A stretch of DNA of 64,000 nucleotides from Chrysophaeum taylorii (lineage: Eukaryota; Sar; Pelagophyceae; Pelagomonadales; Pelagomonadaceae). This document shows positions 6,746-54,278 of the stretch, one piece after another. The notes under the pieces are model-generated. The model searched no databases, was not told the origin of the DNA, and saw only the letters and a program-made list of their open reading frames with translations. The stretch covers positions 1-64,000 of the forward strand of contig JAQMWT010000141.1 of the NCBI GenBank assembly GCA_029834535.1, in the 5' to 3' direction. A program made the position numbers and the translations under genes. Position 1 is the stretch's first letter. Each line of letters opens with the position of its first letter.

Positions 6746-8143
6746 TCAAGCAAGATGGGCGCCGAGGGTCTCGGGGAGGGCAAGGGATGCGAGGGCGCTG
6801 GCGAGAGCGGCGGCGGCGAGGACGAGGACGACGAACGGGAGGGGAAGGGTGGAGTCGACGACGTAGGAGGAGGCAAAGGCGGAGAGGCGGGAGACGGCGA
6901 GCGCGAAGGAATGGGCGGTGGAGCGGACGTCGGTCGGGAACAACTCGGGAACGTGGACCCAGGCGGCCGAGGAGGCCATCATCTGGGCGCCGAGGGCTAG
7001 ATAGAGACAAGAGAACACAACCCAAGTGGTGTCGAGAAAAAATAAGATAGGGACGAGGGAGGAGGCGGCGACGACGTAGGGTATCGCCTGGGCTTTGACG
7101 CGGCCAAGACGATCAATAGAGAAGAGGAGCGCGGCCGCGCCGGCGATTTCCGACGTCGTAACCAGGAGAATGAACGGGTACCGGAACGCGCAGTCGGCAC
7201 CCTGGCGATCGAAAAGCTTCGTCACCAAAAGCGATATGCCGTAAAAGTCGAGCCCGAATCCAATCCATACCACCCAAACCAGAAAAGTTTTTGTTCTCAA
7301 ATCTTTCGCCCACAGTCGCGTCCACGACGCGGCGGCGGCTTTCGTCGGTACCTGCTTGAAGGCGTAGGTCGCGGTCGTCGAACCGTTGACCTTCGCAACC
7401 TTAGCCACCACACTCTGGGCCTCTGCCGTTTTCCCCCGCGACACCAACCACACCGGGGACTCGTCGAGAAAAAGCGTCGCGGCGAGAAACGCGAAGACGA
7501 AGGGCAGCGCGCAGGCGAGGACCAGCAGCCGCCAGTTTCGACCCGTCGCCCAGCTCGCCGCGGTCGCGTACATAGCACCTCCTGCCCACGCAAACTCGAG
7601 AAGTGTGAGGTTTTTCCCTCTCGAGTCGTTCGGCAGAAATTCTGCCGCGAGATCGAACGGCACGGCGAGCGCGCCGACTCCAACGCCAACGATGCCGCGC
7701 AGCACCACAAACACCGCGAAGCTCGGGGCTGCGGCGGTCGCGATCCCGGCAACCGCAACAACACCCGCGGCCGCGAGGCTCGCGGGTTTCCTGCCGAGAG
7801 CGTCGGCCGCGGGTCCAGCGACGGCCGAGCCCACCAGTTCCCCAGCAAACACGATCGAGACGATCGACGCCGCGCGCACCGGAGTCAAGTTCAGCGACGC
7901 GCCCACGCAGGAATACAGAAACGACAGCAGCGACACCTCCATCGAGTCCGCCATCCACAACGCTGCAGACAAAAACATCAATCGTTTCTGGTACCACCCG
8001 TACCCTATGCGCGATATCGCCTCCTCCACGTCGATGCTTCGCGACTCTTCCTGCGCGACGTGACCGTACGGGCCGTGGATTGGATTCATCGCAATCCCGT
8101 CCTCCCTTGCACACTCTGCGGCGGCGCCCGAGTCCTCCATCAT
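6746..8143 (-). CDS. SVOP/SLC22-like major facilitator transporter, copy 1
   Basis: The 465-residue membrane protein has about 12 hydrophobic segments. It starts with the SVOP-type leader motif (IGYGWYQKRLMFLSAALWMADSMEVSLLSF region, about residues 44-75), then the MFS loop motif DALGRKP, a RGIVGVGVG segment in helix 4, an AEFLPNDSRGK loop and DESPVWLVSRGK after helix 6. These match synaptic-vesicle-2-related and plant or algal organic-ion transporters. The substrate (organic cation, nicotinate or sugar-like) cannot be assigned. A close paralogue lies at 52592-53923. The start is ATG, followed at once by a second ATG. The 3' ends of this gene and of the deiodinase-like gene face each other 45 bases apart. 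Runs of GAC/GTC codons near the C-terminus also open long antisense frames, which I did not annotate. Confidence 0.85.
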   Translation of the reverse strand: MMEDSGAAAECAREDGIAMNPIHGPYGHVAQEESRSIDVEEAISRIGYGWYQKRLMFLSAALWMADSMEVSLLSFLYSCVGASLNLTPVRAASIVSIVFAGELVGSAVAGPAADALGRKPASLAAAGVVAVAGIATAAAPSFAVFVVLRGIVGVGVGALAVPFDLAAEFLPNDSRGKNLTLLEFAWAGGAMYATAASWATGRNWRLLVLACALPFVFAFLAATLFLDESPVWLVSRGKTAEAQSVVAKVAKVNGSTTATYAFKQVPTKAAAASWTRLWAKDLRTKTFLVWVVWIGFGLDFYGISLLVTKLFDRQGADCAFRYPFILLVTTSEIAGAAALLFSIDRLGRVKAQAIPYVVAASSLVPILFFLDTTWVVFSCLYLALGAQMMASSAAWVHVPELFPTDVRSTAHSFALAVSRLSAFASSYVVDSTLPLPFVVLVLAAAALASALASLALPETLGAHLA

Positions 8144-8232
8144 CCCTTCGTATCATCCAACGGACGTTTAACGTCCCCTTTTTTTCGAGAGGGCCCGTCT
8201 TCTTCACCGCGCTCTGACGGGCGAACCACGTC

Positions 8233-18997: not shown

Positions 18998-20250
18998 AGG
19001 GATGTGCCTGACGGCCGGAGATAAGTTCAAGGGACCTAGTCGGGGTCATCGCCGAATCAGAAGGGGTTTAGGACTAACAAGTGCAGGCCAGTAAGTTCAC
19101 CTAGTCCCAATCTCTAACCCCAGTAAGTTCACCTGGTCCCAGTTAGTTTCTTGAAAATTTATTGAATAAGTTCACCTGGTCAGTAAGTTCACCTAGTCCA
19201 AATCTCTAACCCCAGTAAGTTCGGCGTAAACCCACTCGTGCTCACACCCACTCCTTCGAGCTCGTCGCTTTCGCCTCCGCCAATCTAAGCTGCTTCGATC
19301 CGCACACGCCGCTAACCTTTGAGTTTACTCTTAAACCCCCAGTAAGCTCGCCTGGTCCCAGTAAGTTCACCTGGTCACTATATTCACCTAGTCCCAATCT
19401 CAAACCCCAGTAAGTTCACCTGGTCCCAGTAAGTTCACCTACAGTGCGCGTGTAGACGCCGGGAGGGGGCTTATCGGTATTGCGCAGCACGTGTGGGGTA
19501 GGGTGGAGTCGTCGACTCAGAAGAGCATATCCTCGGGGTTGCCGATCGACAGAGAGCCACGTGGAGCTGGACGTGACAGAAGACGGCCTTGGGAAAGAGG
19601 ACGCCGACCTCGCGGGGCGTCTGGCCCTGGCTCTTGTGGCCCTGGCTCTTGTCGATCGTTTGGCGTCGGCGGGCCTTAAGGGATACAGGTTGGAGGAGCC
19701 TCGGCGACACGACACGATCGATCACGTATCTGGTACCGTTGCAGTGGCCGTGCGACGGGTCGAGGTTGCGAAGACTTTAAGCTCGCCATCAAAGTCAGCA
19801 TGCCGTTGGTTGTCAGGGAGTCGAAAACTCGACTGCAAAGAGCGAGGCGTCGCCTTCCGACCCAACCCAGTCTGCCTAAAAGAACTCCGACGCCTCGTCT
19901 CCGGGAAAAAAAGGCCGCGGTCATGCGCGCGTTGTCAGCATCGACAACATCGTTTCGACGGGGCGTGAGAATGGCGCGCTGGCTAAAAGAGCCGCCGCGG
20001 GTCGTGGAAATAGTCTGCGAGGTCGCCGTAGACGGCTTGGAGGATCAATGCCTGGCTCGTGGGCCTACCTGATCCTTACCCTCGGGGGACAAACAGACAA
20101 ACAAACAGACAAACATCTGTCGATTAGTAGTAGTAAGGATATAAGTTCAAAGCACCTCTCTCTCGGGGGTTGTAGTGGTTTTCTCAGATACCCGCCCCTC
20201 CTGGCCGAACCGGGGGCCTCAACAACCCTTCCTCCCAACCCGAACCGCGG
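18998..20250 (+). repeat. complex dispersed repeat A, copy 1
   Basis: Copy 1 starts with a short piece of dispersed element B (about 18998-19055, GGAGATAAG then GGGACCTAGTCGGGGTCATCG). It continues with a minisatellite built on AGTAAGTTCACCTGGTCCC, repeated about nine times to 19446, and a 600-base unit (about 19441-20075). It ends with (ACAA/ACAG)n and ATCTGTCGATTAGTAG near 20130. The same modules in the same order and orientation occur at about 28990-30345. Both copies keep a short minus-strand frame (19471-19725 here), so the unit may descend from a gene or mobile element, but I cannot name it. Confidence 0.8.
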
Positions 20251-20806: not shown

Positions 20807-23800
20807 TTAGTCTCGAGCCGGACAACCTTGGAGGTACGACCCCGGCGGATACGCCGCCGCCGCCAAAGCGTCGTCGCGGTTTTCGAGCTGCGCTTTGGGG
20901 CCTAAGATGACCCCAGCAGGGACTACGTCGCCAGCCCATCTTATGGATGCCGGATGCAATATCGCGCCTCTACCAATAGTCTTCTTGCGGAAGGCGATGC
21001 GCCCGTGCTCGAAGACCTGCGAAAAGAAAACAAAACGTTGTCAGCGCGGAACTATTTTCGTAGATGACTTCACGTTTCGTAACACTGTCTTCTCAGAACG
21101 TGAGCAACATTCACTGAATGCTCGTCTATGATGGCGTCAGCCATCATAGACGAGCAACGGTGGCTCGTAGAAATACCAATTGTTCACAAAGGCGGTCGAG
21201 TCAACGTTAGCTCCGAACAAGCACATGTATGCATTGGCAATTCGACTACAGCGGATAAGCAGCATAATTTGGCGGGAGAGGCCTAAGAAGATCACCTGAT
21301 AGTCCATGTATGCGAATCTTCGCCAAGGCGACGACCACGCGGGCGTCGCTCGCGCTTTGAAAAAGTCGCGCACTATCAGCCACTGCCATACGCGGAAGAC
21401 GAGCGCCATCGACACCAAGGCCAAGAGGGCGATGGGCCCGATGAGCAAGAGCGCGGGAGTGCGCGGAACCGGGGGGCGCCATGCTTGGATACGCCCGGAG
21501 GCACGGACGCGGAACCCGTTTTTGTAGTAGTCAGATTTAAAGTAGTTTGCTTTCTCGTACGGTATACCCGAACGGCACATTCGTAAGCAGGAATGAGCGC
21601 AACAATGCTGAGCAAGAATAAAACGAGAGCACGCGAAAGCGGCTGCAGCAATCTTTCGACCATATAGCGTTGCTGCTCGCGATTTTCTGACTGGTCCACC
21701 GTCTTACTTTGCAAGAAGACGCTGGAATCGAAGTACGTCGACCCGGTTTGGACGACGAAGTTCTCCGGTACCACCGTTTGGTGTCCAACAACTGCGCCGT
21801 CTTCGACCACAACACCAGCGTTTAGCCGTGAGCGAAGACCAATTTGCGCGCGCTCACCCCGATCCTCGCCGGCTTGTAATATCCGGCGGCTCCTTTGCGC
21901 GACGTCGCAAACCCCGACAGAGTTGTGAATTCGCAGACCCGAGATGTCAAAAGAAGATGAGATAGAGGGAGCAGCATCCTGCACATATTCATCATCATCA
22001 CAACAGTTACTTATTTTCATCGAGGGAGGAAGCAAAAAGCAGACACTGTTGTTGTTGTTGTTGTTCAAAAAACCTCGATCAAATCCGCTTCGACGGGCGA
22101 AAAGAAAAAGACGCTCGCCATGCTTGCGGTAAAGTGAACGCGCGCGCCCAACGCCTTCATCAACGCCACACTCAACAGGCCGTTTTCTGACCACACCATC
22201 ATACCAAATTTAACCAAGATGCGAAACCAAATCCACTCGATAAACCACGCCCGCAGACGCCACGTCAAATCATATTCGGACTTGCGTGCCCCTGGACGCA
22301 ACCGGCCGATAAGCAGCCACTTCAAGACCACGACGCCAACGCCTGCCGAGACGAACATCGCAAAGAAGTAGCTCGATACAAAATAGATAAGCTCGCGATA
22401 TCGAAAGCGCCAGGAGTACCAATCCAACTGCCGTAAAAAGAACTCGACGAGTATGCTCGTCCCAACGAATGACCCATAGAGGTAGCACGCGAGCGTCGCA
22501 AGTTTTGCAACCTCAAAAAAACAGAACCATGTGATCCGTTTTGTGTCGTCGTCGACGCGTGCGACATTCGCGTCGCCCGACAACAACAGTTGCGCCGGAC
22601 TCGACTGATACAGGCGATCACGGGCCAGGAGTTGGCCGCTCGCCGTCGCGGCGTCGTGGTCGAGCACAGCACCGTATTCTAGCTTGCATCCTGGCATCAC
22701 GACAGCCGCTGACTCGACCTTTGCGCGCGTTTCGATGGCCGCGCGCGCGAAGCGCATGCCACCGTCGGGTTCAAACATACGAGCGTAACAGAAGCCGCTC
22801 GCTCGCGCGTGCTCCCCGACCGAGAAAAGGTCGAATTCTCGGAACAGAACTTCGACGCGCGCACGAACCGAGATCCGGGCGCCCATGACCAAGTAGAACG
22901 CGTTAATGAGGAGCGTGTCGTGGACGAAGGTACCGACCCACGAGTCGAACTGGTCGACGAGCCGATCGACGAGCCACCAGCGCAAGAAGTACGGCGTCAC
23001 GTTTTCCCGACCCGGTAGCGGCCGATCACTAGCCACTTCGCGAGAATGGTGATCGCTGTGAGTGACAACAACATAAAGAGCGGGATGACCAACGGCAGTA
23101 AGAGACCGTAAGCGTAGACGCAGTTCGTCCCAGCAAGCTTGACGTGTGACCACGGCGCGTTGTCGCGTCGAACCTCGACGCGCTTCGTAGCTATCGATTT
23201 GGAACGCCACTGGACCCAGTGCCCAAAGTGATACACGCTGGAATGAGCGCGATCGATACCAACACGACGACGACGATCACCGAGACCGCCTGCACCACGT
23301 CGACGACCCAGTGCGGCAGTCTTCTAGTAGGAGAACCAAGATCGACGCCGTCGGGGAGTGGCACGATATTCGCGAGCGGCGGCTCACTTTCCTGACGCGC
23401 AATACAAAGCACCTCGTTCGCTAGTTCAGCAATCGCGAGATTCGGATCCATAAGCGTTCACTTCCACATTCAAGTCCCGCCGCAACCGTGTTTGCACCAT
23501 CAAAGCGTCTTGCGAAGACAAGCCGAGGCGTGCGACGGATGTTGTCTGCGCGTCGACGTCGGCCTCTGCCACTGATGCGAGGATGTGCAAGAGAGTGGCT
23601 TGCACGTACGCTAGCTGTTCTTGGCGTGCTTTGATATCGGGATAGTTTGTTGCCACTGCCGGCTCCTGAGGTACTTCCCAAACGTCAAACGCGTCGATGA
23701 TGTCGTGCTTCCGAGAGAGCCCGCTGACGACGACAAGATGGGACGCCGCATTTTTTTTCACACCAAAGTCATCTTCTCTGGCGTTTTCACCGCCAGACTT

Positions 23801-23935
23801 CAGAACGCGAAACCGAATCTTATCAAGCCATCCGTGGCCGAGAGCACTTCTCTCGTCATCATCGAACGCCGGAGCACGCCGCCGCAACAACATCTGGTAC
23901 CTCTCGATGATCTGGTGCCGTGACTTGGAAAACAA
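20807..23935 (-). CDS. C-terminal half of a Pls/PosA-like megasynthase: acyl carrier, membrane and beta-helix hexapeptide domains
   Basis: Read right to left, the locus shows an acyl carrier domain around 23460-23580 (LGLSSQDALMVQTRLRRDLN, with the serine expected to take phosphopantetheine, then AIAELANEVL). Hydrophobic membrane segments follow (about 23215-23360, 23020-23120, 22340-22480 and 22140-22240). Left-handed beta-helix hexapeptide repeats appear at 22650-22930, 21740-21870 and again at 20807-21200, with a last membrane stretch near 21400. The very end (VVPAGVILGPKAQLE, PPGSYLQGCPARD, stop at 20807) is the typical end of such a transferase. The layout matches Pls/PosA-type NRPS-like enzymes. 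The coordinates span exons; GT-AG introns at 21017-21099 and 21979-22073 restore the family pattern. One-base breaks remain near 23455, 23236, 23014 and 21137, so the gene may be decaying. Confidence 0.7.
21120..21155. repeat. perfect inverted repeat, 16-base stem with 4-base loop
   Basis: GCTCGTCTATGATGGC at 21120-21135 is followed by GTCA and then its exact reverse complement at 21140-21155. The hairpin lies inside a hexapeptide-repeat coding stretch, and one of the apparent one-base frame breaks falls in its loop. Confidence 0.95.
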
Positions 23936-26304
23936 CGTGGCAAGCTGCGGAGAAGTTTCGACGTTGCGACAAGATCGGCGGCGGCGGCGGCGATTTGTTC
24001 CGAGCTTCGCTGAGATTGCACGAGAGAGTTGGCACCTGGGGGGGCAGAGTTTTTTTCGCGCGAAAGGGCGCCAAAACTAAAAGTAATAGTACCACCCGAG
24101 AGAACAACAAGGTTCTCGAAATCTCAGACTCTGATGATTGGGACGCAAGCCTTTCGCACCTTGCTTACCCAAGGTAATAATGCTGGTTTCCGTCGAGAAC
24201 CAGTCGTAGGTCGCCGCCGCTGAATTTTTCTTATGGTGACAAGCCAAATAAGTGACGTGCACGTTTAGCGTCACGAGACGCATCCACAAAAAAAAAAGCT
24301 GGGTCTTCGTTCGTCAACGATAGCAAGCACGGCACCAAGAAGTTTGCGACGTGAGGCAGGAAAGGGCGCGGGTGGTCTGTGAAGCCGAGCAAGATATTCC
24401 ACACGATATAGAGCTGGACCCATTCCGACATCAACGCCGGGCAGACTTCAAAACGAACCAATTCTGCGATGATGATTCCCGAACTTAGTGTTTTCGTGGA
24501 AACTTCCACGCGTGCGGTTGGTTGGTGAAGCACACAACTCCAGTAGGCTAGTTCAAACCCAGCGCCTGAAAAGGGGTGTGTAGCCACACGTACGCGTCTT
24601 GCTTTTGACAACGGACTCTGAAGACGCGCGCGTTGCAGTCGCACGTTTTGGAGACGCACTCGACGGCTCCCATCACGATTTTTGCCGCGAGAAGCTCTCC
24701 GGCCGCTCGCGCAGTGCCGAGTTGACTCGGGTCGCGTCTCGTCTCGGCTATGCTCCGCATAGCCGAGAGAACAACCTCGCGCGTCATGCGCCTGCGTTTG
24801 AATTCGCTTCGAGTCGAGTGTGGAATAAATAAACGACATACTCTAAGGGCGAAGACGAGTCTACGTCAACAGCGTCGCTGCTCGCGCGATTTATGGCAGT
24901 TTCTTGAGCCTTGAAAAAATCGAGCAAGAAGTCCGAGTTTTTTCCTGGTACGTAGCGCAAACGGACGGAGCATCGATATGCCGAGCGTGTGAAGAGCGAA
25001 AGAATAGAGGACAGCGCGTCGTAGGTCGATGGCAGCGCGCTCTTCTTCTGAAACGGGAAGTTCTCGACCGGGTTGTTCGATTTCAAGTTCTTGCGCAACC
25101 TGCAAGAGAACGGGCATCTTGATGATGTTTGACTTAACTTCGTTGACGAAAGCTGCGACGTCGACGAGAGACTCGTCATACTACTCGAGACGATGCATCA
25201 GCTCCTCCGGAACGGCGAGTTGTCGAAGGATGTCTCGCACGTACGTCGGGGTGGTCTTTGAGCGAGGTGTCTGGCGGGAAGAGTCCAACGATCTGCTCCG
25301 CTACACGGTCGACGAGAGCCAAGCCGAGAGAGCAGCAAGGACAACCAAACGACAGATCATCCACGGCTGGTTTGGCGACCGCACTCGCTGCTCGTGAAGC
25401 AATGGCTTCCTGGCCAGAGCCTTCGCCCTCAAGCGCAACAATAGTGTCGCGGAGTGCGCCCGAAGGTGTCGCACCGTCGACGCCGCCGAGGTGTGCAGCG
25501 AGGCCGGGGCGGGATTAGATGCCCACCAACTTCCTCTCGTTGAAAGTCAGTCGTGACGTTGACGGCGGACCAGAAATAGCGGTTGTCCGTCGCCCAACGA
25601 TTGCAGCGAATCATCCTGCGATCTCGACCCTCGCCGACGACGATGCCAAAACAGAAGCAACCGAATTTATCAGCGTGCCTGGGCTCTTCTTAGAGTCACG
25701 CAAAAGATAAGATAAGATAAGATGAGCGCGCGCACACAACACTACACCCGTCGCGTGCTTTTTTCCATGACACCGCCGAATGCGCAAGATTCATCTCGGT
25801 ATCGAGGCTGTCGCAGCTATCAAGCGCCGCGACGAGGAGTCGTGAGCTCGAGGCGCGAGGGACGAACTTGACTACGCCGTTTTGATGGAGGACAAGCACA
25901 TAAATCTCGTGCGGCAGTTGCGCGATGACGTCCTCTTGAACATGGGGTCGCGTCTCGATGATGTCATCCTTCGATACGACTATCTTTGCGACCACAGCAC
26001 CTTCGTGCGCGCAACGCCCACAGCCCAGATGGTGCTGGCAGTAGAGGTTTTCACCTGGGGAAACGTATTATAATCATCATCGCTTCAATTCATCACAGTC
26101 GTCGTGCACCATATGACTTTCTATTAGGTCCATTTCATCAAAAATATTGATCGCGACTCTGGTTACGAGACTATCGTCGATCGTGTTTTCGGCCTTGATT
26201 TCGATTTTTCGAATCACGTAGTGGTCGTCGAGTACTTCCCAGACGCCCAGAAAGTCGGAAAGCTCGTAGCAGCGTCCCCGAGCCCGAGCTTCCGCGAGCA
26301 AGCA
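23936..26304 (-). other. unrecognised coding-like segment between the ligase and carrier domains
   Basis: Minus-strand pieces have protein-like composition but change frame often. They include a stretch with LGCGRCAHEGAVVAKI (about 25960-26030), one with NRWATDNRYFWSAVNVTTDF (about 25550-25615), a helical stretch (about 24870-25120, VAQELEIEQPGRELPVSEEE) and a hydrophobic one (about 24290-24560). No domain is recognised. The segment may be an extra domain of the megasynthase or a separate small gene with introns. A perfect 12-base-stem hairpin lies at 24742-24768. The piece just after the ligase (26077-26301) reads ELSDFLGVWEVLDD, which loosely resembles DAFDVWEVPQEP near 23660, hinting at a repeated motif. 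Confidence 0.4.
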
Positions 26305-28492
26305 CTAGGACCACTTTAACGTCGGATCGGTTAGCGGGATAAATCGTCTATCCACCTCATCCGGTGGTGCCAGGCCCATCGAATCGAGGGTGTTACCCGC
26401 CGTATCACAAGCAGAGCCGACGAGCCGCCATAGCCACTGGGAAAAGCTACCGCCGTCCTCTGCTGCTGAGTTTCTCCTTCGGGAAACAAAAACGTTGCGC
26501 CCGCAATCGATGGCATTTAGCGGCCGTCGTTTTCCACCGAGTGTTGTTGGGTTTGAATCAAAGACGACGCTAAGCTTGCCAGCTAACAGCGCGTCTCGAA
26601 TCGCCCGGCGCCGTAGCTTCCCGCTCGTCGTTTTCAAAATGGTCTTCTGCTTGATGAACACGACGCGGCGCGGTGCCAGACCAACCGTTTTGCGAACGCA
26701 TTTTGGGAGCGTCGACGCGAGAGCCTCGCACTCGGATGCAGCGTGATCGCGGACTTCGAGCACGATACACAACCACTCGTCGTCGTCGTCGTCGTCAGCT
26801 TCGACGACGACGACGACGACGGAAAAGGCGGCGATACATCCCGGTCTCGCGGCGTCGACCATAGCCTCCGTCGCAGCAATTTCGACGTCGTCGCTGTAAT
26901 AATTTTCGCCGCAAACGATGATCACGTCTTTGATTTTTCGGCCGCAAACGAAAAGGCGACCGTCCTCGACGAACGCTTCGTCGCCCGTCCTCAGGTATAC
27001 CTTGCCATCGTCCGGCTCGAGTCGGGCGCTGAAGATCTCGGTGCTGAGTTCTGGTTTGCCCCAGTAACCCTGAGCGACCGAGCCAGAGCTCAACCAAACA
27101 GCTCGCCGGGCGTGCCGTCGGGTAAAACGCCTCGCGTCTCCGCATCAACGACGCAGAGGTCAATCTGGAATTCGGAGCCGCACGACGCGAGGTCTGGCCG
27201 TCGTCGCGACATCACGAGACCTTCAGCCTCGCCGCACGTCGCGACTACGTGCTCGGCTAGACCATAGTTCGGCACGAATAAGGTACGATTGCCGTCGTCC
27301 AACAACCTGCAGCGAACGGCGAAAAACGCGGCGAACTCGCGGAGGATCGAAGGCACGCATCGCTGGCCAGCGCCACAAGCGAGAAGAACCACGCAACTCA
27401 GGTCAACGTCGTTGATATCGGCACCAGCAGCGGCGCGCTTCGTGCACAGCTGGTAGCCAAAGTCGGGCGCCGCGGTCCACAACGCGCGATACTTCGACAC
27501 GGCGCGCATCCACGCGAGGGGATCGGCGAGGAACGAGAGAGGCGAGAAGTTGACCATGTGGTAGCCAGCGCAGAACGGACCAAGCAACGTCAGCATCAAA
27601 CCCGTGTCATGGAACTGCGGGAGCCACGAAGCCGCGACGACGCGCGACGACGGTTCTCGAAGATCGCGCAACCGGGCACTACTGGCCTCGCCCAAACGAA
27701 GGTCGAAACATCGGCGCTGCGCTGGCAAGAAAATATCGTTGAGATTATGCCAGATGTTGGCGTGTGAAAATCATGACGCCCTTCGGGTCGCTGCGGGAGA
27801 CAATGAGGAGATTTCGGGCGATGATGCGACAAAAAACGCACCCCGTCGAGCAGGACGTGAATTGAAGGAAGGCAACGGCATCGGAGGGGGACTGCTCGAG
27901 AAGATTGCTGCGCTGTTCCTGTAGTGATTCGCTCCCGTAAAAACTCTGCGCGTGAGCTCACCAGCCGATGGAACAGTGCTGTACTCAGGTCGTCATCGTT
28001 GACACCCTCGCCCAGGCCCTCCGTGTTGTGCCAGCGTATCCCGGGCCACGAGTGCCATACGCTCGTCGTCGCGCGCAGCTTATTCACAATACTGTCGGTA
28101 AGACCCACCTCGGCACCGCAGTTTTTGGTTACAAGGTCCAGCTTCTCGAGGCCGCGCCGAAGCTGGGCGGGGTCGGTAGGATAATTCGGTACGGCCAAAA
28201 TGCCAGCGCGAAGACACGCGACGAAGGCGACGAAGAACTCGGGACCAGGAGCGTACGCGAGCACGGCGCGATCGCCCACAGCGAGACCAAGGTCCCCGAG
28301 AAGCCAGTCGGCCACGAACGTCGATCGGGCCCAGACCACTCCAAACGATAGGCTGGTAACTTCGGCGCCAGCGCCGTCGAGCCAAGTTAGGAAGGTCTCC
28401 TTTTCGAGCGTAGTTGCCGTTTTTCGTGCCTGTTCCTGCCAACTTACTTCGTCGCTCCAGGGGCGAAACCATCGCGGCCTGCTCGAAGTCAT
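26305..28492 (-). CDS. fatty acyl-AMP ligase-like adenylation domain, N-terminal half of the megasynthase
   Basis: This stretch reads as a full FAAL-type adenylation domain. The N-terminal part (28492 leftwards) has VGDRAVLAYAPGPEFFVAF and AGILAVPNYP. The phosphate-binding motif reads FTSCSTG, split by an intron (27791-27841) and followed by DPKGVM. The FAAL-specific block SWLPQFHDTGLMLTLLGPF lies near 27590, YGLAEHVV near 27250, YLRTGDEAF with GRKIKDVIIVCGENYY near 26930-26990, and the C-terminal TTSGKLRRRAIRDALLAGK near 26590. Such enzymes make acyl-AMP and load it on a carrier protein. An intron at 27919-27961 joins FHRL to EQRSNLLEQ. Frame breaks remain near 27755 and 27092. The Gly-to-Cys change in the phosphate loop is unusual. 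A Val run and an Asp run occur at about 26780-26825. Confidence 0.8.
27791..27841 (-). other. spliceosomal intron, 51 bases
   Basis: On the minus strand this begins GTGCG and ends CCGCAG. Removing it joins FTSCSTG to DPKGVM and restores the adenylation-domain phosphate motif exactly. It is the best-supported intron in the window. Similar GT-AG introns are proposed at 27919-27961 (43 bases), 21979-22073 (95) and 21017-21099 (83). Confidence 0.85.
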
Positions 28493-28705: not shown

Positions 28706-30345
28706 ATTTGTCTTTAAATGTCGACTGCTAAGAGGGGGGGGTGTGTGTGGGGAGCATGAAGGATTTGTCCATTTTCTTCCATTTCCGTGGAAATGTCCGG
28801 AGGTTGGTGAGGAGACTTTCGGCCGACCGAGCCCGAAGTGGCTCGAACACTCAATAAAAGGGACGCGTGGGCGTCCACTGACGTGTCTGTCTGCGGCCGC
28901 CGCCAGCGCGGGGAGTGCAGTGGTGTGCGCACGTAAGTCGTTTAGTGGTTAAAAAAAAAGTCTTTATTTATTATAAAGCCAGGAGTCATAAATTTATGTA
29001 TTATTATTAAAGGTAACAAGTGCAGGCCAGTAAGTTCACCTGGTCCCAATCTCTAACCCCACTAAGTTCACCTGGTCCCAGTAAGTTTCATATAAGTTCA
29101 CCTGGTCAGTAAGTTCACCTAGCTCACACCAACTCCTTTGAGCTCGTCGCTCTCGCCTCCGCCAATCTAAGCTGCTTTGATCCGCACGCGCCGCCAACCT
29201 TTGAGTTTACTCTAAAAACCCTTTACTCTAAAAACCCAGTATGTTCACCTGGTCCCAGTTTCACCTGGTCACTCAGTTCACCTAGTCCCAATCTCAAACC
29301 CCAGTAAGTTCACGTGGTCCCAGCAAGTTCACCTATAGTGCGCGTCTAGACGCCGGGAGGGGGCTTATCGGTATTGCGCAGCACGTGTGGGGTAGGGTGG
29401 AGTCGTCGACCCAGATGAGTATATCCTCGGGGATGCCGATCGACAGAGAGCCACGTAGAGCTGGACGTGGCAGAAGACGGGCTTGGGAAAGAGGACGCCG
29501 ACCTCGCGGGGCGTCTGGCCCTGGCTCTTGTTGATCGTTTGGCGTAGGCGGGCCTTAAGGGATACGGGTTGGAGGAGCCTCGGTGACAACGACACGATCG
29601 ATCATGTATCAGGTACCGTTGCAGTGGCCGTGCGACGGGTCGACCTTAAGCTCGCGCTCAAAGTCAGCATCCCGTTGGTTGTAAGGGAGTTGAAAACTCT
29701 ACTGTAAAGAGCGAGGCATCGTCTTCCGACCCAGCCTAGTCAGCCGAAAAGAACTCCGACGCCTCGTCTCCGGGAAAAAAAGGCCGCGGTCATGCGCGCG
29801 TTGTCAGCATCGACAACATCGTTTCGACGGGGCGTGAGAATGGCGCGCTGAAATAGCCGCCGCGGGTCGTGGAAATAGTCTGCGAGGTCGCCGTAGACGG
29901 CTTGGAGGATCACTGTCTGGCTCTCGCGCCTACCTGATCCTTACTCTCACGCCTACCTGATCCTTACCCTAAATCGAGGGACAGACAGCCAACGCATTAG
30001 GCCGGGCTCGCTGTGCCCTCACCGCCCTTACCCATGTCGCCGCCTCGGGGAACCCCGCCCAGGCCGCCCGATCCCAGCAGGACGTCACCCTTCGTCGCAC
30101 ATACGTCCGGCGGCAGCATGCGTACGACCTACGGGCGGGGCCCGTCCTCTCTTCGCCTGCCCCACGCCTCGGCGATGACCCCGACTAGGTCCCGCGTACT
30201 TATCTCCGCCCGTCAGGCACATCCCTCATACCCCACAAACCCACCCACATCCTTCATGCTCCCCACACCCCCTCCCCCCCCTCTTAGCAGTCGACATTTA
30301 AAGACAGACAGACAAACAGACAGACAAACATCTGTCGATTAGTAG
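28706..30345 (+). repeat. complex dispersed repeat A, copy 2, with nested element B
   Basis: A 5' piece of element B (about 28706-28760, CTTTAAATGTCGACTGCTAA) comes first. The AGTAAGTTCACCTGGTCCC minisatellite (about 29013-29338) and the 600-base unit (about 29333-29945) follow, closely matching 19441-20075. A reversed, nearly complete element B occupies about 30115-30300, then (ACAG/ACAA)n and ATCTGTCGATTAGTAG end the copy near 30345. Copy 1 lacks the nested element B here, so it was probably inserted after duplication. The minus-strand frame at 29365-29595 matches the one in copy 1 over most of its length. Confidence 0.8.
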
Positions 30346-52591: not shown

Positions 52592-53923
52592 TTAATTATC
52601 GGTGGCGGTGGTCGAATCGAGGGGCCGTCCTGCCGTCTCCGGCAAGCCCGCCACAAGGAGGCCTGGCATAATAGCGCCGATAGTCGCGACGACGAGCGCG
52701 ACGAGGGGGAGGGGCAAGGACGAGTCGACGAGGTAGGGCGCGCCAAAGGCGGCGACGCGGGTAACGGTTATCGCGAGTCCGTGGGCCGTTCCGCGCTCTT
52801 CGGTTTCGTAGAGCTCGGCTATCTGGACCCAGCTCGCGCTAGTGGCGAGCATCATAGCGCCGAGGCCGAGGTAGAGGAGCGCGAGGTTCGCGTAAGTTCC
52901 GGTACCGAGCGCGAGCAACGAGAGCGCCGCGCCGCTTCCTATATACCCGGCGGTCTGGCACGGGACGCGACCCGAGTCTATGAAGCGGACAAGAACAGCG
53001 ATGCCAACGAATTCGCTCGAGCTGATGGCTAGAATGAAGGGGTAGTTGAAGCGACAGCGCCCCCCGCTGCTCCCGAATATTCTGGTAACTAGAAGGGACG
53101 TCGCGTAAAAGCCAAGACCGGAAGTTCCCCAAATCAGGAGGACCCGCCAGGTGTGGGGTCGTCGGAGGACCTCGCCAAAATCCTGCTTGTGGAGAGCCTG
53201 GGGGGCGCCGCCAACCGGGGGCGGGGGTGCGGCGCCGTTAGCCTCGGCGACGCGGTCCAGGACTCGGCCGGCGGCGGCGCGGTCGCCCTCGACAACGAGC
53301 CAGCGGGGCGACTCGTCCAACAAGAGGGCCATCGCAACAAAAACAAAGACAAAAGGCAGTGCGCACGCGAGAACGAGGAATCGCCAGCTCCGGCGGACGA
53401 TCCAGGAGACGCCGGCGACGTACGCCGCGCCGATCGCCCACGAAAATTCCAGCGACGCGAGATTGCGTCCTCTCGCGTCCTTCGGAAGGAACTCGGCGAT
53501 GAGGTCGAAGGGAACTCCAAAGGCTCCGACTCCGACGCCCACGAGGAACCGGAACACGGCGAACTGCGCGAAATTTTGAGCTCCGGCCGTCAGGAGGCCG
53601 CCAAACCCGACCAAACAGGCGCTCGACAACGACAACGGTCTACGTCCAAAGCGATCTGCCAGGGGACCCGCGATAGCCGCGCCCACGACTTCTCCAGCGA
53701 ACACAATAGACACGAGAGACGCAGCCTGAAACGAGTCGAGATCGAAGGACCCCCCAACGCACGAGTACAAGAACGCCAGCAAAGACACCTCCATCGAGTC
53801 TCCGCACCACAGCAACGCCGTCAAAAACGTCATACGACGCTGATACGGACCGTATCCGATCCCCTCGATCACCGCCTCGATGCTCGCGCCGCCAAGCAAA
53901 GGCGCCTGCTCGCCGCGACACAT
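52592..53923 (-). CDS. SVOP/SLC22-like major facilitator transporter, copy 2
   Basis: From the first ATG this is a 443-residue, 12-segment MFS protein and a clear paralogue of 6746-8143. It has the same leader (IGYGPYQRRMTFLTALLWCG, then DSMEVSLLAFLYSCVG), DRFGRRPLSLS loop, VGVGVGAFGVPFDLIAEFLP, KDARGRNLASLEFSWAIGAA and LDESPRWLVVEGD. Differences cluster in the N-terminal tail, the central loop (Pro/Gly-rich here) and the C-terminus. The substrate is unknown, as for copy 1. The longer frame upstream begins only at GTG, so I did not use it. The two copies are 46 kb apart in the same orientation, with unrelated neighbours. Confidence 0.85.
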   Translation of the reverse strand: MCRGEQAPLLGGASIEAVIEGIGYGPYQRRMTFLTALLWCGDSMEVSLLAFLYSCVGGSFDLDSFQAASLVSIVFAGEVVGAAIAGPLADRFGRRPLSLSSACLVGFGGLLTAGAQNFAQFAVFRFLVGVGVGAFGVPFDLIAEFLPKDARGRNLASLEFSWAIGAAYVAGVSWIVRRSWRFLVLACALPFVFVFVAMALLLDESPRWLVVEGDRAAAGRVLDRVAEANGAAPPPPVGGAPQALHKQDFGEVLRRPHTWRVLLIWGTSGLGFYATSLLVTRIFGSSGGRCRFNYPFILAISSSEFVGIAVLVRFIDSGRVPCQTAGYIGSGAALSLLALGTGTYANLALLYLGLGAMMLATSASWVQIAELYETEERGTAHGLAITVTRVAAFGAPYLVDSSLPLPLVALVVATIGAIMPGLLVAGLPETAGRPLDSTTATDN

Positions 53924-54278
53924 CTCACAAAAATAGATAGCGTCTAAAACACCTACCTCAACGGATCTTCTCTCGTCGGAACCTCTCACGCTGTGGCTGG
54001 GCGGGCGGGCCCATAAAAAGCATGATATCACACAAGGTAGTTTTAATTTAATTTAATTTAATGATGCCCCGCCGGCGCCCACGCACGAAATAAACCAAAA
54101 AAGAGCTACTACTACCTAACCTACGGTCGTCGTCGTCGTCGTCGTCGCTATAATAATGAATGAATAAAACAGGCCCTTCCTTCGGGGAGGGAGAGAACAC
54201 AACAGTGGGATCCGAGAACCCAGCTGTTGTTCATGCTGTTCGGGGATCGTCAAGGCGCGCGTGGTTTTCCAATCGGTG
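53924..54278. other. transporter upstream region with simple repeats
   Basis: This 355-base gap holds a (TTTAA)n run near 54038-54061 and a (GTC)n run near 54125-54148. It is the 5' flank of the transporter and the 3' flank of the NTF2-fold gene. No gene is seen. Confidence 0.6.

Follow-up and report, generated by a model that had tools for sequence, protein, structure and literature searches.

In this study, we analysed a 64,000-nucleotide stretch of the genome of the pelagophyte alga Chrysophaeum taylorii (assembly GCA_029834535.1, contig JAQMWT010000141.1, positions 1 to 64,000 of the forward strand; hereafter the window), and found that the minus-strand locus at 20807..28492 is probably a decayed member of a multi-copy family of membrane-bound synthases, in which a fatty acyl-AMP ligase (FAAL)-type adenylation domain, a carrier domain, and a transferase terminus like that of Pls/PosA, the epsilon-poly-lysine and delta-poly-ornithine synthetases, form one polypeptide. 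Relatives were sought in the whole genome of 70,800,356 bases in 697 contigs, here denoted by C-numbers, the window lying in contig C141. The 84 matches of this genome to the light-harvesting family PF00504 mark the host as an alga, and relatives of solved structure include fucoxanthin-type proteins among the best, which is not decisive for the kind of alga; we take it to be of the chlorophyll a/c type. On the minus strand the order of parts is FAAL, middle region, carrier, and membrane/beta-helix terminus, from an ATG at 28492 to an end near 20807. This is the order proposed in the initial annotation, and Pfam and NCBIfam matches as well as paralogue alignments bear it out. The parts are as follows.

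26545..28492, minus strand: FAAL-type adenylation domain (Pfam AMP-binding, NCBIfam FAAL models, paralogue alignment A2); 2 frame shifts relative to C575
23800..26305 (approximate limits), minus strand: middle region of ~700 residues in several exons, conserved in paralogues; 2 in-frame stops and 4 frame shifts
23456..23596, minus strand: acyl carrier domain (Pfam PP-binding) with the attachment-site motif LGLSSQDAL (by eye); a frame break just behind it
22068..23330, minus strand: first membrane spans, first left-handed beta-helix block, and next membrane pair (TIGR02353, alignment A1, homology to bacterial Pls-type proteins); 2 frame shifts
20807..21970, minus strand: second beta-helix block, membrane spans, third beta-helix block, and transferase tail (tblastn of C575 exons, frame-aware alignment); 3 frame shifts
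21119..21156, no strand assigned: perfect inverted repeat (arms of 17 nt, loop of 4 nt) in the former coding sequence of the third beta-helix

The adenylation domain contains at least two GT-AG introns, at about 27961-27892 and 27841-27791 (limits by eye), one of the two stops sits at the start of the middle region, and the transferase tail of the window copy ends with the residues LQGCPARD.

A frame-aware alignment of nine exon pieces of the paralogue on C575, the best of the intact relatives in this genome, to the window revealed 12 frame shifts and 2 in-frame stops across 2,207 aligned residues, or ~1.8 frame shifts for each kb of coding sequence that could be aligned, so that no uninterrupted reading frame runs across the exons of the window copy. 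The breaks are distributed as listed above, with a single shift behind the carrier site. The alignment was run on five of the nine family sequences, with C575 as the reference and C44b, C309, and C45 left out, and gave 2 shifts and no stops for C44a, 3 and 3 for C670, 2 and none for C551 (103 kb), and 11 and 4 for C133 (43-52 kb), the last C575 exon piece finding no seed in C670 or C551. An earlier count from joined BLAST pieces (9 shifts, 8 stops) was discarded because it included stops in out-of-frame pieces. One of the frame breaks maps to the 17-nt inverted repeat, whose arms measure at most 7 nt at the matching place in C575, both C44 copies, and C309; the repeat resembles the product of a template-switch mutation. 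The window locus thus appears to be a pseudogene of the algal synthase family, and, because the copy is decayed, no enzyme product is expected from it. The megasynthase that the initial annotation had placed here therefore gives way to a broken copy, one of about 40 related loci.

Several observations weigh against this conclusion. The absence of breaks in C575 is partly by construction, since it served as the reference; its frames are nevertheless long and open. Furthermore, pairwise ratios of non-synonymous to synonymous substitution (dN/dS) of the window copy, 0.17-0.27, are not above those of the open copies, which implies either that decay is recent or that some breaks are assembly errors. 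The branch test for relaxed constraint on the window copy is weak, with replacement/silent counts in the terminal exon of 37/24 for the window and 18/22 for C575, and in the FAAL exon of 19/15 and 6/5, respectively. One may ask whether the gene is intact and expressed, its breaks being residual long-read assembly errors, which polishing removes with difficulty from a repeated family. The assembly reported in PMC10366177, probably the one analysed here, used Nanopore R9 and PacBio beside Illumina data, and some of the window breaks fall in T runs (by eye). However, three frames neighbouring the gene (323, 335, and 210 aa) are open, each with a Pfam domain above its cut-off, which argues against generally poor sequence. 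Homopolymer errors also do not typically leave in-frame stops, of which there are two here, or a perfect palindrome, which four paralogous copies lack. Replacement changes are somewhat more frequent on the window branch than on that of C575 in the terminal exon, albeit hardly so in the FAAL exon. We thus regard an intact window gene as unlikely, and retain the reading of a decayed family member.

The family itself is large. Matching stretches number at least 102 for the terminal exon, at least 88 for the FAAL exon, and at least 30 for the middle core; clustered at 3 kb, these give at least 41, 49, and 25 loci, respectively, all counts being lower bounds that include broken copies. Among the terminal loci listed, 35 of 41 lie within 9 kb of a FAAL match, whereas six have none nearby. 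Among the matches listed, 19 of these 35 FAAL-terminus loci have a middle match within 6 kb and 16 do not, and 14 further FAAL loci are without a nearby terminal match. Many family loci neighbour each other on one contig, for example on C44, C133, C551, C351, and C24. Several paralogues have long open frames. The terminal match of C390 falls within an open frame 1,206 aa long, of which a 1,132-aa part (L026) begins part-way along the FAAL C-terminal domain and continues through a carrier-like stretch and the terminus to the tail. A single frame of C551 near 91 kb holds the FAAL end, a carrier (26.2 bits), and a TIGR02353 match. C20 has a frame of 936 aa with FAAL and middle region and one of 648 aa with middle region, carrier, and first membrane part (by eye), and a 1,000-aa frame of C309 joins the FAAL C-terminal part to the carrier and the first block without a middle region (by eye). 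Taken together, these frames show ligase, carrier, and terminus as parts of one predicted polypeptide in the paralogues. The measured exon pieces are under purifying selection, with dN/dS of 0.17-0.32 in the terminal exon (10 pairs), 0.16-0.28 in the FAAL exon (17 pairs listed), and 0.26-0.45 in the middle core (six pairs).

The initial annotation had left a 2.4 kb segment without a recognised domain. It remains unmatched against Pfam (E up to 1) and PDB (E up to 5), with single sequences and with a profile, and it appears to be a conserved part of the protein: it is retained in C575, C44, C133, C551, C670, and C20, and three rows of alignment A3 are 68-76% identical to the first. Viral contigs gave no confirmed match to the middle region, and a plasmid search with its 257-aa core only gave no match worth keeping. 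The idea that it is a decayed acyl-CoA dehydrogenase was dropped after comparison with the dehydrogenase region of C488 gave a probability of 0.2%.

Other fusions to the same parts occur in the genome. On C488, at about 13.6-25.7 kb (L061 1156-9600, L062 2-3780), four tandem FAALs and two acyl-CoA-dehydrogenase modules share one open frame of 4,042 aa with a carrier-like stretch (by eye) and a Pls-like terminus. Related loci lie further along C488 and on C451. On C320 (L039 1-2520), a FAAL has behind it a carrier match below the cut-off and hydrophobic stretches, with the terminal query of the window unmatched, and this locus is possibly another fusion type. On C24 (L006 1321-4041), a frame of 4,052 aa has AMP-binding and ketoreductase matches, with a weak terminus match downstream (E 3.6e-7). 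The C24 frame fits the polyketide synthases with N-terminal adenylation domains, some also with a left-handed beta-helix (LbH) domain, that are reported for C. taylorii in PMC10366177. These reports, together with the C24 frame, raise the alternative that the intact relatives serve such synthases as modules for starter loading or release and are not self-contained acyltransferases. The C390 and C551 frames, however, hold their own carrier and terminus, and, unlike the LbH-containing polyketide synthases, the family parts scanned contain no matched ketosynthase; we consider the module explanation quite improbable. The main text of the genome paper, in the part available, makes no mention of the family, of how large it is, or of its middle region, albeit the nine non-ribosomal peptide synthetase (NRPS) genes counted there may include family members.

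The FAAL assignment made in the initial annotation was upheld by profile models, PDB labels, and a tree. Pfam AMP-binding matched two stretches of the window (E 6e-12 and 9.6e-16), and the best NCBIfam matches include FAAL models (PRK05850, E 2.4e-25 and 7.8e-26) along with models labelled as CoA ligase and NRPS/polyketide synthase, all scoring below their own cut-offs; PF23024 was matched weakly. In PDB, the C575 segment had 17 matches: entries labelled as FAAL/FadD ligase, polyketide-synthase chain, saframycin synthetase, or acyl-CoA synthase fill the first 15 places, and amino-acid adenylation domains the remaining two. For the whole C575 domain, an NRPS/polyketide synthase model (over its first 564 positions) gave 269.6 bits, a FAAL model 266.5, and the amino-acid adenylation model 104.7, each below the respective cut-off. 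In a tree of 90 rows built with a quick method, four FAAL domains from three family genes form one clade with full support, adjoining one Acidobacteriota and one Proteobacteria sequence (SH-like approximate likelihood ratio test, SH-aLRT, 95); as similarity to the algal query guided the choice of the 80 bacterial rows, this tree is hardly informative about origin. By these sequence comparisons, the family ligase is of FAAL type and not of amino-acid type. Two Acinetobacter phage records (H10, H11) carry a ligase, annotated as a putative AMP-dependent synthetase, that aligns with 92% of the algal FAAL at 30% identity.

Sequence homology makes the terminus a divergent relative of the Pls/PosA terminal domain. 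TIGR02353, which models that domain, matched the 403-aa window exon with 59.7 bits (E 1.7e-16, positions 79-365), C575 with 131.7 bits (E 3e-38), C390 with 114.1, C488 with 90.9, and C551 with 61.4. A tblastn search with the algal terminus found homologues in nine plasmid records (best E 8e-16), two of them annotated as Pls/PosA, and, of 398 genomes from the phylum to which a Methylosinus locus belongs, 17 also matched the algal terminus. Scans with patterns from alignment A1 yielded no confirmed terminus relatives in the genome and viral contigs, and these scans were too narrow, because tblastn and the model search did recover bacterial relatives. Alignment A4 covers all three terminal blocks at 19-23% identity to C575, with His663 and Glu667 invariant in all five rows (two algal, three bacterial), and we infer that the conserved His of the third block is a candidate catalytic residue. 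Hydropathy scans of C390 show three pairs of hydrophobic stretches spaced like those of the bacterial Pls-type L053. Alignment and hydrophobic pairs together match the membrane domain of Pls/PosA, whose three repeats have been modelled as left-handed beta-helices above paired membrane helices (PMC10522769).

Set against this homology are a number of weaker points. All TIGR02353 scores (59.7-131.7 bits) lie far below the curated cut-off of 423.1 bits, the model also matches in 13 of the 14 control genomes (above the cut-off in one), and weak matches reach 32.6 bits in the 15 genomes searched. C390 retains the His but not the Glu of A4 (by eye), and the hydropathy pattern of C575 and C488 is less clear and regular than that of C390. 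A single-sequence fold of the first beta-helix exon of the window gave only helices at a mean predicted local distance difference test score (pLDDT) of 45 and was not used; as it is uninformative, the proposed beta-helix fold rests on homology. The window carrier scored 18.2 bits with PP-binding (E 0.0031), below the cut-off of 20.8, and the ten window pieces scanned gave no Pfam hexapeptide match. The carrier is above the same cut-off in C575 (22.7 bits) and C551 near 91 kb, where it lies between ligase and membrane part as in Pls/PosA, whereas the carrier-like stretch of C390 reaches 19.0 bits. Hexapeptide scores stay below the 27-bit cut-off in every protein scanned (C575 20.9, C390 18.7 bits). 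The initial annotation had held that a lack of domain hits above threshold for the carrier or hexapeptide regions would count against it. The window lacks them for both, and the paralogues rescue the carrier but not the hexapeptide region.

With Pls/PosA the algal family shares the order of adenylation domain, carrier, and membrane domain, a homologous terminus, and a like spacing of hydrophobic pairs. It differs in having a FAAL in place of the diamino-acid adenylation domain, a sub-cut-off TIGR02353 score, a middle region of ~700 residues in many members, introns, about 40 loci, and a eukaryotic host. The characterised Pls/PosA enzymes activate diamino acids, and homologues have been reported in fungi, Amoebozoa, Metazoa, and alveolates (PMC10522769). 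Among 30 bacterial Pls-type loci, the adenylation domain was readable in 23 (17 genomes) and was not seen in the other seven (L163, L164, L172-L174, L181, and L183), weak TIGR02353 matches at L147-L157 being outside this count; all 23 readable domains favour an amino-acid reference (L053) over the algal FAAL. Of two control bacterial FAAL loci, L063 was clearly FAAL (308 versus 60.8 bits for FAAL and amino-acid references) and L066 was nearly even (269 versus 262), perhaps because the L066 stretch holds both kinds of adenylation domain.

Because the adenylation type and the TIGR02353 cut-off were tested and the algal proteins fall short on both, we describe the family as Pls/PosA-like in predicted layout and do not class it as a member. 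The Pls/PosA-type layout suggested by the initial annotation thus stands at the level of the family, by terminus homology, hydrophobic pairs, and joined frames, with the reservation that the ligase is FAAL-type. The shared domain order, the homologous terminus, and the reported eukaryotic homologues would also suit a homopolymer synthetase of Pls/PosA type that polymerises diamino acids. This is very unlikely, given that the adenylation domain is nearer to FAALs than to amino-acid domains, the reverse of what the bacterial Pls-type loci show. That ligase and carrier/beta-helix part are two adjacent genes, as the broken frame between them in the window might suggest, is contradicted by the open frames of C390 and C551 (91 kb), which run from the FAAL C-terminus into the terminus, and is hardly credible.

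The combination found in the alga was also sought around bacterial FAALs. The 80 best of at least 517 bacterial FAAL loci showed no full terminus in the flanks examined, and the sole match at E 1e-3 near them was a 198-aa frame in L097 (22.9 bits), which we took for an ordinary hexapeptide protein. A FAAL with a full Pls-like terminus was thus not found in the bacteria examined, these sets being samples that do not imply general absence. The algal family shares FAAL-type activation and an in-cis carrier with the FAAL-acyl carrier protein units of bacterial polyketide synthases and NRPSs, but ends in a membrane terminus and not in the modules of those enzymes. Like DIP2/CPS1 of animals and fungi, it represents eukaryotic FAAL-like domains, including the weak PF23024 match. 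DIP2, however, is described as a DMAP1-binding domain with two FAAL-like domains, and no such terminus is described for it in the available part of PMC8460268; in the window pieces scanned, no DMAP1-binding domain was detected, and carrier and terminus follow the ligase instead.

Apart from the gene, the window contains two copies of a ~1 kb repeat that flank it in the same orientation.

29014..29948, no strand assigned: copy of a dispersed/tandem repeat, lying upstream of the gene; the nearest copies outside the window share 98% identity with it (among the 40 of 2,656 candidates scored)
19075..20083, no strand assigned: second repeat copy downstream of the gene, in the same orientation as the first and 84% identical to it

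The genome search for this repeat gave 68 matching rows, and, among the candidates scored, copies of up to 98% identity occur in short tandem arrays, for example on C281. Two similar long minus-strand frames of one family, at 6746-8152 and 52592-54052, appear transporter-like (label by eye).

Based on published accounts of FAALs (PMC8460268, PMC11837247) and PosA (PMC10522769), intact family members probably act as follows. The FAAL would adenylate a fatty (or other non-amino) acid with ATP and, independently of CoA, charge the phosphopantetheine of the in-cis carrier with the acyl group, which the terminal domain would hand to an acceptor located at the membrane. If the fatty acid lacks a second functional group, a single transfer is all that could occur, and hydroxy or amino fatty acids would be required for polymerisation. 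Substrate, acceptor, single transfer as opposed to polymerisation, the role of the middle region, and the beta-helix fold are all matters that we infer. More tentatively, the family may be an expanded eukaryotic synthase class in which fatty-acid activation has replaced amino-acid activation and a ~700-residue middle of new fold has been gained, and which makes fatty-acyl conjugates or oligo-esters/amides at the membrane, the extreme form on C488 also desaturating the bound chain; this is plausible, albeit somewhat less likely than not.

In summary, the copy first noticed in the window is a broken one, and C390, C488, and C575 give long open frames suited to expression and assay. The role known for Pls/PosA terminal domains is to join diamino acids, and in C. 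taylorii their homologue sits near FAALs in at least 35 loci. The family thus points to unexplored lipid- or polymer-making chemistry in an alga that probably forms mucilage and blooms.

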